From positions 124,001 to 188,000 of the forward strand of contig NZ_MWWT01000009.1 in NCBI RefSeq assembly GCF_002259705.1: a DNA stretch of 64,000 bases, written 5' to 3'. This DNA is from Alloscardovia macacae. GTDB lineage: Bacteria > Actinomycetota > Actinomycetes > Actinomycetales > Bifidobacteriaceae. How positions within the stretch are numbered: the stretch's first letter is position 1; each line of letters starts with the position of its first letter. Below, one piece after another: positions 10,245 through 63,552 of the stretch. The notes below the pieces were generated by a model that saw only the letters and a list, made by a program, of their open reading frames with translations, was not told where the DNA came from and searched no databases. Position numbers and translations under genes: made by a program.

Positions 10245-10385
10245 ACCTCGCGAGTTTTTTGCATTCCGTGCCGTGGAAGGTACGAGCCCGAAAATGCAGT
10301 CCAGTACCGCCGCGGCACCTCACAAAACAAGGCCGCGGAGGCCTCACAGACCGCCGCGGCACGATATGCAAAAAACTCGCGAGGT
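10245..10385. repeat. 141-nt palindromic element with 32-nt terminal arms
   Basis: The left arm (10245-10276) and right arm (10354-10385) are reverse complements at 29 of 32 positions, with the outer 20 nt perfect (ACCTCGCGAGTTTTTTGCAT). Inside are two direct copies of ACCGCCGCGGCAC and the short palindrome GGCCGCGGAGGCC. The arm closely matches the arms of the 270-nt element near 62.3 kb (CCTCGCGASTTTTTTGCAT, then CGTGCC). It occupies the gap between msrAB and gluA, both on the minus strand, so it will be transcribed or will separate the two units. Confidence 0.75.
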
Positions 10386-27065: not shown

Positions 27066-27167
27066 GGCTGGCCTTCTGGGCGGGGCTGGACGGGGCTGGA
27101 CGGGGTCGCTAAAATATAACCCCCATGGATAAATCCAGGTCTCAAACGTCAACGGTATTTTACCTAC

Positions 27168-27229
27168 TTTTTGCTAATCGGCGCATTTTTTGAGGTTGGT
27201 ACCTTGAAAAATGCGCCGATTAGCAAAAA
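27168..27229. repeat. 62-nt palindrome, left flank of the 27-28 kb gene
   Basis: A perfect 23-bp inverted repeat: TTTTTGCTAATCGGCGCATT plus TTT at 27168-27190, complemented at 27207-27229, around a 16-nt loop holding GAGGTTGGTACCTTG. The complete unit is the reverse complement of the unit at 28552-28613, loop included. It begins 19 nt past the stop of the gene it flanks. Confidence 0.9.
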
Positions 27230-27248
27230 TTAGCCGACTCACATCGGC

Positions 27249-28436
27249 TTACTCAAACTTCAGCCTATGTTTTTGAGGATACTCTATCAACCATTTTCTT
27301 CTCTCGTCTTGTTCCTGACTACTAACCATTGGTATACCACATCTGTGCAGCTTAAGAATCATCGATTCACCATTCTTCTCATATGCTTCCCTAAACTGAA
27401 ACCGTAGAACTGTCATACCCAAAAGTGTGAGTGCTCCTTCACGATCATGCTGTCGTAAAAGTACATCTAGCCCATCCTGAGCACCACTATCCACGAGCAT
27501 TCGTGCATCTGTATATTTGTCTCTCCCATCCATCTCTGCAGCCACACACCTCGTTCTTCCATCAGAACCTGGTACTTTCCACATAAAGTCTACGCGGACA
27601 GTCTTTGTATTTTGTAGTGTGGGATTATTATCACGCTGAGAAGAGTAAAAAGGATTCCTTACTGATACTTGTAACTCCGGTATTTCAAATCCAGCCTTAA
27701 TCATCCGCGCACGAGCAAATGATTCTCCACCATTATCTGAATCTGTGCGAATGAATCCGAGAACATATCTCACATAATCTATTCCTCTGCATCGAGCTCG
27801 CTTCGTCAGAAACTCGTCTATCTGTTCTCGGGTAATGTGATACAAACGTGCTAACGTGTCACAGACCGCTAAAGCAAATTCGAACTCTATCTGGCGTACC
27901 ACGTCAAGCATAGTTTGTAATGGACTCGTCACAAGGAATCCACACACTATTCCTGCTACATCGCTGATACGCTTATACAGCCAGTACATATAAGACGAAT
28001 CATAGGTTAATAACTTCTCGGCGGATACAGGATTCAGTGTCGCGCGCTTATAGAGATCTTTACGACAATCTTTAACGTAATGGCGTACATAAACATTCAT
28101 CTTGCCATTTCTCGTGGATGTATGTTCATCCGTCGCAAAGTGAACATGTCGATGAAACCGTGGCCATAAGATAGCACCAAGAATAGCTGCAGCTGACACT
28201 CCAGAAAGTATCTCGTTCGGATGAGTCACTGCTGCAGCACGAATTTTCTCGACTATCTGTCTATCCTTCGGGAGCGCAGTCCATGCCTCTGCAGTAATGA
28301 ACCACCCCAACATAGGTTCACAAAGTAACCCTTTACGTACTTTTCTACGAGCACAAGCCCGTTCCTGCTTATCATCAAGCCGGGTAAGCTCGACGTAGTT
28401 CTTATATTCACGTGTCATATCATCAGTTTGTATCAC
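27249..28436 (-). CDS. AbiEi-like protein with C-terminal PD-(D/E)xK/DUF559-type nuclease-like region
   Basis: 395 residues from a GTG (an ATG 18 nt in is an equal candidate). The N-terminal part (MLGWFITAEAWTALP ... PNEILSGVSAAAILG) resembles the winged-helix AbiEi antitoxin-like region of actinobacterial two-domain proteins. The C-terminal part contains VRVDFMWK, then AAEMDGRDKYTDARM, the D...ExDGxxKY pattern of DUF559/very-short-patch-repair-like nuclease folds, and then TLLGMTVLRFQFRE. Such proteins are common orphans in bifidobacterial genomes and are sometimes mislabelled as CTP synthase, which this is not. G+C is clearly lower than in hrpA and glnA, suggesting transfer. No partner toxin gene is next to it. 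Function unproven. Confidence 0.7.
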   Translation of the reverse strand: MIQTDDMTREYKNYVELTRLDDKQERACARRKVRKGLLCEPMLGWFITAEAWTALPKDRQIVEKIRAAAVTHPNEILSGVSAAAILGAILWPRFHRHVHFATDEHTSTRNGKMNVYVRHYVKDCRKDLYKRATLNPVSAEKLLTYDSSYMYWLYKRISDVAGIVCGFLVTSPLQTMLDVVRQIEFEFALAVCDTLARLYHITREQIDEFLTKRARCRGIDYVRYVLGFIRTDSDNGGESFARARMIKAGFEIPELQVSVRNPFYSSQRDNNPTLQNTKTVRVDFMWKVPGSDGRTRCVAAEMDGRDKYTDARMLVDSGAQDGLDVLLRQHDREGALTLLGMTVLRFQFREAYEKNGESMILKLHRCGIPMVSSQEQDERRKWLIEYPQKHRLKFE

Positions 28437-28497: not shown

Positions 28498-28551
28498 TTT
28501 TCTTCGTTTATGGCAAGTTATTCACCATTGTTTTCCCTCACCATATTTTAC

Positions 28552-28613
28552 TTTTTGCTAATCGGCGCATTTTTCAAGGTACCAACCTCAAAAAATGCGC
28601 CGATTAGCAAAAA
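28552..28613. repeat. 62-nt palindrome, right flank of the 27-28 kb gene
   Basis: Same 23-bp perfect arms as the unit at 27168-27229 (left arm 28552-28574, right arm 28591-28613). The loop reads CAAGGTACCAACCTC, the exact reverse complement of the other loop, so the two units are inverted copies. The remaining roughly 100 nt to glnA show nothing else. Confidence 0.9.
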
Positions 28614-28715
28614 GTAGTCTAAATCAGACAGAAGCGACTTCGGCAAGTACTCGGCAGCCCCCGGAGCAAAGCCCGTCCCAGCCGCGCACACCAGCACCAC
28701 ACCCCCACCCGCACA

Positions 28716-47312: not shown

Positions 47313-47382
47313 TGTGTGGTGAGGCTGGCTTGACGGAGGCCTGAGATGCAAAAAATGTTTCGAGCATTTACTCGAGTACTCT

Positions 47383-47448
47383 ACTTTTTGCTTATCGGCG
47401 CATTTTATGAGGATGGTAGCTAGAAAAATGCGCCGTTTAGCAAAAAGT
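47383..47448. repeat. Diverged third copy of the 62-nt palindrome family
   Basis: ACTTTTTGCTTATCGGCGCA at 47383-47402 pairs, two mismatches, with a right arm ending GCAAAAAGT at 47448. It matches the palindromes at 27168 and 28552 in nearly all arm positions but has a different loop (TGAGGATGGTAGCTAG). It lies in the 420-nt gap between uppS and glyS, which holds no gene. A further TTTTTTGCAT half-motif lies at 47347-47356 on the minus strand. Confidence 0.8.
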
Positions 47449-47496
47449 ACGCAGCATAATCACGGACACGGTCACTCGCCCAGACCCATTTTTACG

Positions 47497-47563
47497 AGTA
47501 ATCGGTATTTTTACCACTTTGAGTCCCCGAAGAGCTCTAAAAATGGTAAAAATACCGATTACT
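47497..47563. repeat. Palindrome with perfect 20-bp arms
   Basis: AGTAATCGGTATTTTTACCA (47497-47516) is perfectly complemented at 47544-47563 around a 27-nt loop. The sequence differs from the other palindromes except for an outer ATTTTTTGCA at 47567-47576. It lies about 50 nt past the uppS stop and could act as a terminator with the following T-run on the plus strand only. Confidence 0.75.
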
Positions 47564-55145: not shown

Positions 55146-55208
55146 GGCACGACCTGCAAAAAACTCGAGCACACCAGCGCTAGACGGTACTAGACGGGTG
55201 TGCTCGAG
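55146..55208 (-). terminator. Terminator of the DUF3052 gene joined to a palindrome-family half-element
   Basis: On the minus strand a perfect 12-bp stem CTCGAGCACACC / GGTGTGCTCGAG is followed by TTTTTTGCAGGTCGTGCC. The last part is the same module found in both arms of the elements at 10.3 and 62.3 kb; here it forms the T-tract of a normal terminator. The flanking ATGAGTCCCTGGC also recurs near 62.46 kb. Confidence 0.8.
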
Positions 55209-61939: not shown

Positions 61940-61983
61940 ACGTTATATCTTTGAAAATCTCTCAATCAGGGAAAGGGGACGGC

Positions 61984-62208
61984 ATGCTCGTCGAAATAGG
62001 CGTACAGAACGTCGGAAAAGCTATTACTCTCGAAACTCAGGACACTGCAGAAGCCGTCAATGCGCGCGTGGACGCCGCGCTGAAGGACGGACAGGCGCTG
62101 CGCCTCACGGATGACAAAGGCCGCACGACCATCGTCCCTGCTGCTTCACTGGCGTACGTCATCGTAGGGTCTGAAGCCTCGCACCCAGTGGGGTTCGGGG
62201 CTCTGTAG
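61984..62208 (+). CDS. DUF3107 family protein
   Basis: 74 residues from the ATG preceded by AAAGGGGACGGC (an in-frame start 33 nt upstream is unlikely). MLVEIGVQNVGKAITLETQ and DDKGRTTIVPAASLAYVIVG match the small actinobacterial DUF3107 family, of unknown role, commonly beside UvrD-like and phosphotransferase genes. 44 nt after the APH-fold gene, probably cotranscribed. Confidence 0.93.
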   Translation: MLVEIGVQNVGKAITLETQDTAEAVNARVDAALKDGQALRLTDDKGRTTIVPAASLAYVIVGSEASHPVGFGAL

Positions 62209-62246: not shown

Positions 62247-62516
62247 CCTCGCGACTTTTTTGCATGTCGTGCCATGAGAGGCTGACGCATCCTGACCACG
62301 GATATAAAAAGTGCGACTTTTCTAGACGCTCGTCGAAAAATCTCGGTTTGAAGGCCGAAAAGTCGATGAACGTATGAACGTCTAGAAAAGTCGCAATTTT
62401 CGTATGTCCTATGGCTATGTCTGTGGTGTATCTGTGGTGCATCTGTGGTGCAGCCACTCCGGCTGGCCAGGGACTCGAAGAAGACTCCCGGCACGACATG
62501 CAAAAAAGTCGCGAGG
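62247..62516. repeat. 270-nt nested palindromic element with perfect 27-bp ends
   Basis: Outer arms 62247-62273 and 62490-62516 are exact reverse complements (starting CCTCGCGACTTTTTTGCATG). Nested within is a second perfect 16-bp inverted repeat GCGACTTTTCTAGACG (62313-62328 / 62379-62394) and a third short stem near CGG / CCG. Three copies of the hexamer-like TCTGTGGTGYA lie at 62419-62451. The 27-bp end matches the 10.3 kb element, suggesting one MITE-like family. It fills the whole 348-nt gap between convergent DUF3107 and PHP genes; no gene is seen. Confidence 0.85.
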
Positions 62517-62556: not shown

Positions 62557-63513
62557 TTACGGCAGCACGCGGATCCTTCCGCGACGGATTATCTCCTGCA
62601 CCGTCGGCTCATCCGTCGTATTCTCACCGAGCACGTTCGGCTTACCAGCGCCATGCCAGTCCGAGCCGCCAGTCACCAGAAGATCGAAGCGCTGCGCCAA
62701 CCCCAGCAGCCTATCGCGCTGCTCAGGCGGATTATCCCTATGCCACACTTCCAGGCCATCGAGGCCGCACTGACATGCAAAAAACTCGATATCCTCATCC
62801 GTGAGCAGCGAACGATTTCGCGACGGAGCCCCACTGTGCGCGAGGACCACCACTCCTCCTGCATCCTTGAGAGCGCGAACCACGGTAGCTACACGTGGCG
62901 AAAAGACTGGAATATAGTACGGACTTTTCGTAGAAATGATGCCTGCGAACGCGTCCGAGCGCGTCTCGTACACTCCTGCAGCCACGAGCGCATCAGCGAT
63001 GTGCGGACGCCCCACAGTGGTGGCATCCCCCTCATGGACCTGCTCCATAACGGATGCCCACGAAATGGGATAGTCCGCGCTCAGCTTCTCCACCATCGCA
63101 CGCGCGCGCTCAAGCCTGCGCTGACGCATCTCCTCGTACAAGCCCAGCACATGCGCATTCTCACAGTCATAGAGGTAGGCGAGCACGTGGACGCTCACGC
63201 GACCATGATCATGCTGAGCAGTTATTTCCGTGCCGCGGATAAGCGGTACCCCGTAGCGAGCCGAGGCCTCCTTCGCCTCTGACCATCCAGCTATGGTGTC
63301 GTGGTCGCTTATGGCTACGCCTGCGAGCCCCTGCCCGGATGCCATGCGGATGAGATCCGTCGGACTGAATGTGCCGTCCGAAAAGACCGTATGGCAGTGC
63401 AAATCCCAGCCGTGAGAGTTCTGTCCGAGTGAATCACGTAAACCCTTCGTGCTCTGCGTGGCATTTCGCGCACCATCCTGCGCACCATCCTGCGCCATCA
63501 GTGAAACCGTCAT
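62557..63513 (-). CDS. PHP-domain phosphoesterase (RNase AM / nucleoside bisphosphatase type)
   Basis: 318 residues from the ATG at 63513. Metal-binding motifs of the PHP fold: DLHCHTVFSDGTFSPTDLI, GVAISDHDTIAGW, EITAQ with Glu, VLAHSGAP, and C-terminal VTGGSDWHGAGKP. The whole-length similarity is to the YciV/TrpH-like group, which includes 3',5'-nucleoside bisphosphate phosphatase and 5'-3' RNase AM. Convergent with the DUF3107 gene; divergent from the VKOR gene. Confidence 0.92.
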   Translation of the reverse strand: MTVSLMAQDGAQDGARNATQSTKGLRDSLGQNSHGWDLHCHTVFSDGTFSPTDLIRMASGQGLAGVAISDHDTIAGWSEAKEASARYGVPLIRGTEITAQHDHGRVSVHVLAYLYDCENAHVLGLYEEMRQRRLERARAMVEKLSADYPISWASVMEQVHEGDATTVGRPHIADALVAAGVYETRSDAFAGIISTKSPYYIPVFSPRVATVVRALKDAGGVVVLAHSGAPSRNRSLLTDEDIEFFACQCGLDGLEVWHRDNPPEQRDRLLGLAQRFDLLVTGGSDWHGAGKPNVLGENTTDEPTVQEIIRRGRIRVLP

Positions 63514-63552
63514 ACTTCTATCGTAGACTGAGCCATAACGAAAGGGATACAT

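Follow-up and report, generated by a model that had tools for sequence, protein, structure and literature searches.

The 270-bp palindrome at 62247–62516 is real and is a composite of two repeat families with offset centres. Its outer part is probably a copy of a REPIN/BIME-like unit, a reading held with moderate confidence jointly with the mechanism proposed below: two inverted putative protein-binding half-sites with a presumed cognate gene 2.2 kb away. Genes of this kind are linked to repeats, and their relatives in several actinobacterial groups mostly carry a private repeat on both sides. The window analysed here is a 64,000-nucleotide stretch, C20:124001–188000 of the 1.89-Mb draft genome of Alloscardovia macacae (G000), with the following features.

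604–663, no strand: family E site pair, GCGAGTTATTCCACTT type
10245–10385, no strand: second family B pair, a 141-bp palindrome flanked by genes of ABC transporter ATPase and msrAB type
27164–27233, no strand: family A site pair, downstream of the gene at 27249–28436
27249–28436, minus strand: paralogue of the presumed cognate gene, 395 aa, with a predicted Vsr-like PD-(D/E)XK domain
28549–28616, no strand: family A site pair, upstream of the gene at 27249–28436; inverted copy of 27164–27233, loop included
47382–47449, no strand: dispersed family A site pair
47497–47563, no strand: family D palindrome, AGTAATCGGTATTTTTACCATTTT
55147–55163, minus strand: single family B half-site TTTTTTGCAGGTCGTGC, right after a terminator-like hairpin
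61951–62208, plus strand: upstream convergent gene, DUF3107
62247–62273, plus strand: left outer arm, family B half-site TTTTTTGCATGTCGTGCC from 62256 with flank CCTCGCGAC
62301–62407, no strand: inner hairpin, family C, AAAAA-TGCGACTTTTCTAGA...TCTAGAAAAGTCGCA-TTTTT type, terminator-like, in the convergent gap
62490–62516, minus strand: right outer arm, inverted family B half-site, 27/27 complementary to the left arm
62557–63552, minus strand: downstream convergent gene, PHP-domain protein

Two repeat families in one convergent gap

The perfect 27-bp termini described in the initial annotation are confirmed, and with extension the outer arms reach 32 nt at 94% complementarity. The inner arms (62307–62328 and 62379–62400) are nearly complementary throughout and contain the perfect 17-mer TGCGACTTTTCTAGACG (62312–62328 and 62379–62395), previously given as a 16-bp repeat. 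Both repeats had been placed around the same centre. The arm coordinates instead put the outer centre at 62381.5 and the inner centre at 62353.5, an offset of 28 bp, and the outer arms and inner hairpin match different genomic places, making them two separate families, B and C. The third small stem reported inside appears in the predicted folds. Folding of the two strands against shuffles gave z-scores of −11.1 and −10.7, with 0/200 shuffles as good. The outer-arm 19-mer has 6 matches in the window at up to 3 mismatches, compared with 0.02 expected, and the window contains 8 long inverted repeats, compared with 0 in each of 3 block shuffles. One sister element had been noted 52 kb away, and this is the family B pair at 10245–10385.

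The palindrome occupies most of the 348-bp gap between the convergent DUF3107 and PHP genes. Among named organisms, the PHP protein has its best relatives in Alloscardovia (Bifidobacteriaceae). As the initial annotation stated, no known gene is present, and three mechanical ORFs overlap it (128 aa and 90 aa on the minus strand, 119 aa on the plus strand at the right end). Rfam at gathering thresholds returned only a tRNA across the whole window, with no structural-RNA match for the palindrome.

A genome search with the element located the inner hairpin at ten other places, nine of them full hairpins. Alignment of ten full family C copies showed a 31-pair stem with 91% of cells paired and 14 invariant pairs; 5 pairs are changed on both sides, a number that shuffles reach in 96/500 trials, while the covariation score is reached in 12/500. 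An A-tract precedes the stem in 9/10 copies and a T-tract follows it in 10/10, and the loops are unrelated among copies. Convergent gaps hold 8 of the 9 classified copies, compared with 48 of 222 adjacent ORF pairs. By its sequence, family C looks like a repeated bidirectional terminator of convergent genes and would act in transcription termination. The nested form at 62247–62516 is most readily explained as a B pair that may have received a C hairpin within or next to it.

The presumed cognate protein family and its flanking repeats

The family B half-site is TTTTTTGCA-NN-TCGTGCC. With up to two mismatches, the whole genome contains 24 near-matches, 18 of them on C20, and 1 match to the reversed pattern. 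Most half-sites are single and several are preceded by CCCCGAAAG or CTCGCGAG; the half-site at 55147–55163 has GAGTCCCTGGC in common with the right flank of the palindrome. The presumed cognate gene (C20:188756–189898, profile match limits, minus strand) lies beside dapF, 2.2 kb from the palindrome, with its nearer (3′) end about 0.75 kb past the window end. It has B half-sites on both sides, at 188715 and 190398, and the 10 kb on either side of its midpoint contain 11 of the 24 near-matches, including one in the gene itself. G000 and A. theropitheci (G003) both carry the gene and its flanking half-sites between dapF and a shared neighbour. In A. omnicolens (G002), dapF and that neighbour almost abut, and in A. 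criceti (G001) a different gene lies between them. The orthologous genes beside dapF in G000 and G003 have TTTTTTGCANGTCG in common in their flanks. G+C is 0.63 for the B gene and 0.44 for the window gene at 27249–28436, with surroundings of 0.55–0.57, so that a foreign composition is not seen consistently among these genes.

Three species carry a gene for a protein of about 390 aa between two site-pair units. A profile of these three proteins detects nine homologues in G000, two in G001, seven in G003 and none in G002 or G004; the latter two genomes contain one and zero strict site pairs, respectively. Profile matches occur in 22 of 59 genomes, including other Bifidobacteriaceae genera and other families of the order. 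By eye, a private repeat lies on both sides of 14/18 Alloscardovia homologues, on one side of 2/18 and on neither side of 2/18. A flank-to-flank score of at least 31 was reached by 13/18 Alloscardovia homologues, bounded by their profile-match limits, and by 11/223 of the other genes on the stretches that carry them (Fisher p 1.6e-11), several of these 11 control genes adjoining the same repeats. Within the window, the pair 27164–27233/28549–28616 has a flank repeat score of 133, compared with a control maximum of 25. Outside the genus, 22 of the 24 non-Alloscardovia loci among the matches listed score at least 31 (L264 and L276 fall below) and 19/24 score at least 37; the corresponding values for control genes, drawn from PHP loci of other genomes, are 19/368 and 3/368. 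The repeat sequence differs from homologue to homologue, and some gene flanks contain long near-identical duplications (L263, L270 and L287). Site and protein similarity are weakly correlated (Mantel rho 0.23, 214/5000 permutations as high), in a test of hand-picked sites for 16/18 homologues that left out the two with no recognised site and included two translations with one stop each, entered as X.

The initial annotation looked to a transposase with matching ends, and no classical enzyme of this type was found: the gene having those ends encodes a predicted Vsr-like PD-(D/E)XK protein. The window protein carries E238, D283 and E301-x-D303-G-x-x-K307-Y, and the E, D and ExDGxxKY residues are retained in 15 of 16 aligned homologues (of 18 in all, two not being aligned), the sixteenth being a shorter profile match. 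The predicted C-terminal domain (residues 233–369) has block pLDDT values of about 53–88 within a model of mean pLDDT 55. Its structural match to the catalytic domain of I-Bth0305I has a Z of 8.0 (rmsd 2.6 over 94 residues), followed by NGO0050 (Z 7.7), Vsr (7.6) and TnsA (6.0), and non-nuclease structures also reach Z 7.2–7.6. Foldseek alone gave no E-value below 0.001, the PDB searched by sequence gave nothing credible, and neither Pfam (13 family members scanned) nor NCBIfam has a family above cut-off. Several PD-(D/E)XK proteins agree among the structural matches and the ExDGxxKY residues are kept; on this predicted fold and these residues, with intermediate Z values and limited model quality, the catalytic domain is therefore predicted to be of the Vsr/homing-endonuclease-like PD-(D/E)XK type. 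Weak profile matches to AbiEi and DUF559 point to a possible winged helix at the N-terminus and a DUF559-like region at the C-terminus; the N-terminal similarity to AbiEi has an E-value of 0.015 in PADLOC and, for AbiEi_4 in one homologue, 0.0047.

Among plasmid records searched with the window protein, the one match was from Collinsella aerofaciens (28.5%). No relative was found among 36 pattern matches of the protein alignment to IMG/VR, and phage records gave no match to an A. criceti intergenic stretch (L088:12400–13300).

Site pairs and arrays across genomes

A. criceti and A. theropitheci have the same core as family B with other inner letters. A strict search for facing pairs, TTTTTGCA...TGCAAAAA at spans of 54–84 bp only, found 16 in G001, 30 in G003, one each in A. 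omnicolens and G000, and none in G004. Outside the genus the same search gave 5 pairs in 3/54 genomes, the control pattern giving 1 across all genomes; elsewhere, some facing pairs occur at single larger spans. In the retrieved stretches of G001 and G003, pairs shorter than 90 bp (T5 to A5) span 71–76 bp in 15/16 and 25/27 cases, and the rest span 84–85 bp. Families A and E have a T4-to-A4 span of 60–61, about 62 on the T5-to-A5 scale. Steps of 32, 62, 73 and 84 bp correspond to 3.05, 5.9, 6.95 and 8.0 turns of 10.5 bp, the 84-bp class comprising few pairs. Family B facing pairs in G000 span 77, 119 and 250 bp and do not keep the 71–76-bp spacing; given its spacing, the B pair of the palindrome may be a broken unit.

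The two arms of a pair are not always more alike than arms of different pairs. Arm complementarity in A. criceti is no higher within pairs than between them (15 of the 16 strict pairs, 1294/5000 permutations as high), and its arms therefore look alike because each is the same half-site. A. theropitheci shows an excess (28 of 30 pairs, 0/5000, uncorrected for region), in a genome where the half-site also differs by region; 84-long pairs were left out of both tests. Seven of ten family A copies in G000 have the same three variable letters on both arms. Because of these matching letters and the excess complementarity, a hairpin or recent copying may matter in family A and G003, and this may weigh against a purely double-stranded reading. 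The single long rod into which the transcript had been expected to fold is a better match for the inner terminator-like hairpin than for the outer arms, for which the A. criceti pairs show no excess complementarity.

All 16 strict pairs in A. criceti lie within 55 kb of that genome's gene. The A. theropitheci units beside genes on contigs C10, C19 and C22 differ in inner letters, and pairs are also present on C3, C15, C18, C26 and C27, which have no homologue. The single A. omnicolens pair (L228:1500–1573), in a recG/rpmB-like gap, is common to A. theropitheci (G003:C26:46713–46785), interior included, and the same gap in G000 holds a different long palindrome. The A. omnicolens segment has 81–84% identity in its two longest blocks, compared with 66–73% at the PHP locus (blocks >200 bp). 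This is only suggestive of a pair that arrived with a transferred segment, as the dnaA region also reaches 81%. Two site pairs lie within long ORFs that stay open (L088:17923–17992 in A. criceti and L085:12332–12405, a VKOR-like gene, in A. theropitheci), and an A. criceti stretch (L089:2150–2848, contig C9) contains four element-like units in tandem with a period of about 183 bp.

Conservation at the DUF3107–PHP locus, which the initial annotation considered contrary to its transposon reading, is partial. In A. theropitheci this gap also contains a site pair, with a TTTTGC-to-GCAAAA span of 71 bp. A. criceti and another Alloscardovia genome have only short terminator-like hairpins there, and the gap in A. 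omnicolens is about 1.5 kb of other sequence with no TTTTTTGCA. No closely related empty site was found for family B.

Further families are present in G000. Family A is spread across six contigs, and its exact pattern had no match in genome_contigs, a set from which G000's own record was possibly left out. Family E often adjoins family A. Families C, D, E and H are palindromes with no assigned partner gene of the nuclease family, and one 330-bp stretch (L010:1258–1588, about 424.8 kb on G000:C1) contains three different long palindromes (H, F and C).

Arrays extend these observations to other genomes. They flank the homologue on both sides in B. rousetti, B. aesculapii and a Collinsella aerofaciens replicon. 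Genome G016 contains 56 near-matches to one homologue's half-site, at many loci, compared with 2 for the control; its congener G028 has 2 compared with 0, and G010 has 0. The G016 arrays comprise up to four half-sites, strand-alternating at 32-bp steps or multiples. One of them is also present in G112, in a gap of 278–280 bp; among the 14 of 30 returned loci that were readable across the gap, the 12 other genomes have 77–120 bp and no array in 11 cases and 289 bp of other sequence in one. In G016 the additional sequence amounts to about 200 bp and exceeds the 128-bp array, leaving its exact ends undefined. The array query matches at least 29 places in the Collinsella record; other plasmid records yield three matches, all weak. 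The 35 kb surrounding the Collinsella gene contain 27 half-sites, compared with 5 for the reversed motif, with strands alternating mostly at 43 and 37–38 bp; six other stretches in the same scan have 6–24, compared with 0 for the reversed motif. The Collinsella ‘plasmid’ NZ_OY725717.1 (L342), 0.9 Mb long, carries smpB and gltB and looks like a piece of chromosome.

Proposed mechanism, alternatives and known systems

In the mechanism that we propose, the protein would recognise its own half-site in double-stranded DNA, and facing pairs would be bound in helical register and bridged on one helix face. Nicking or cutting would cause site pairs to be copied locally into adjacent intergenic DNA, and each paralogue would thereby maintain its own repeat population. 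Binding, cleavage, copying and mobility are steps that we infer; the predicted nuclease fold with its retained residues, the local clustering and dispersal of the repeats, and their presence and absence suggest that the protein spreads or maintains its sites. We favour, again with moderate confidence, a population of REPIN-like repeats that an unrelated nuclease binds and probably spreads. More tentatively, and at somewhat less than even confidence, the data may describe a second independent REPIN-like system in Actinomycetota, in which Vsr-like nucleases, each with its own specificity and unrelated to RAYTs, write and maintain helically phased, strand-alternating arrays on double-stranded DNA around themselves and across the chromosome. 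Two other roles were rejected. For a chromosome-origin role, dnaA is about 30–130 kb from the A. criceti cluster yet on a different contig from family B in G000; for a DNA-uptake-sequence role, we judge the copies too few and too local.

The best-surviving alternative, which we nevertheless consider unlikely, is that the sites are operators. The protein would then be a nucleoid protein or local regulator, bound to strand-alternating arrays that surround its gene and occupy nearby gaps, and would rarely or never use its nuclease fold. Spacings near whole helical turns (32, 62, 73 and 84 bp) would suit such binding. The placement of A. criceti and A. theropitheci pairs is also compatible with it: tandem, convergent and divergent gaps hold 17, 13 and 7 (n = 37), compared with 127, 48 and 47 among 222 adjacent ORF pairs, and 3/40 pairs are inside an ORF or at an edge. 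There is a parallel, with no homology claimed, in EspR of M. tuberculosis, described in PMC3315491 as a nucleoid-associated protein whose sites read TTTGC[TC][GA] and whose own promoter holds an inverted pair; the sites here likewise contain TTTGC and include inverted pairs. Pure operators would not, however, readily account for the catalytic-type residues kept in nearly all aligned homologues, for an array found in two genomes but missing from their relatives, or for the long near-identical flank duplications. To our knowledge, EspR is not a nuclease.

A defence or toxin-antitoxin-like nuclease locus, in which the repeats would mark self or regulate the nuclease and dispersed copies would be host-selected, is improbable. 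The weak N-terminal likeness to AbiEi and the predicted Vsr-like fold point in its direction, but dispersed arrays and paralogue-specific repeats would be unexpected for a defence gene.

It is very improbable that these are classical MITEs moved by an ordinary transposase, in which case the Vsr-like genes would be passengers. The elements do resemble MITEs in being short, intergenic and non-coding with inverted ends, they are dispersed, and one pair (27164–27233/28549–28616) consists of near-identical inverted copies including the loop. Yet half-sites are common to the copies whereas, by eye, the interiors of most site pairs are unrelated, visual inspection of a few copies revealed no recognisable target-site duplication, and no classical transposase was found linked. 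Half-sites also alternate at fixed steps in arrays of other genomes, and gene-specific repeats lie beside diverse homologues across genera. The initial annotation had read the palindrome as a MITE; what stands of this is that the repeat is dispersed and restricted to the species, has sister copies, and probably has a cognate protein. Least credible of all is one long bidirectional terminator of the whole 270 bp, which would fit the convergent gap, the strong folding, the tracts and convergent placement of family C, and the longer stems ending in a T-run on one or both strands around several B-type pairs including 62247–62516, but is at odds with half-sites whose T6 lies outside and A6 inside, opposite to the polarity expected of a U-tract, and with pairs that occur in all gene orientations, twice within ORFs, and also as single half-sites.

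The favoured reading, a nuclease-bound repeat population, works like a REPIN system by architecture, but would not be a member of it, as the protein is not a RAYT. According to the cited sources, GI REPINs are inverted doublets at a fixed distance of 71 bp (PMC3116915) and BIMEs form strand-alternating arrays (PMC2817692). The units described here likewise appear as conserved half-site doublets with a less conserved spacer, at a fixed distance in G001 and G003 but not in family B of G000, and as dispersed copies, singlets and strand-alternating arrays. Here too, linked genes are mostly flanked by a repeat class of their own. The differences are that the fold predicted for the linked protein is Vsr-like PD-(D/E)XK and not that of a Y1 HUH tyrosine transposase, that A. 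criceti arms show no excess complementarity, and that there are several specificities per genome, some families clustering around their gene. The predicted catalytic-domain fold of the window protein resembles those of I-Bth0305I, NGO0050 and Vsr. Homing endonucleases generally cut one target in an allele lacking them, whereas the sites here occur on either side of the gene, in many cases as arrays, and are also dispersed.

The open-licence PMC literature yielded no recognised description of this repeat–nuclease system, nor of DUF559 linked with an inverted repeat; the system looks undescribed and resembles known selfish bacterial repeats. RAYTs have been proposed to spread or maintain REPINs, and REPIN/RAYT is the known example, in the literature examined, of short repeats persisting with a linked gene. 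If the favoured reading is true, the essential features of such systems (gene-specific inverted half-sites and fixed spacing) would be separable from incidental ones (single-stranded transposition), a set of ‘hypothetical’ actinobacterial proteins would gain a likely function, and a DNA-binding protein family would have specificities readable from its own flanks.

Further along the contig of the B gene, G000:C20:197.4–200.4 kb (L082:15461–18405), and also L083, carry CBASS-like genes (SMODS/AGS_C synthetase, SLATT_4 effector and AAA_14 ATPase). These are followed by an Eco57I-type methylase, a T5orf172-ResIII protein and a piece of an rve transposase at the contig end.
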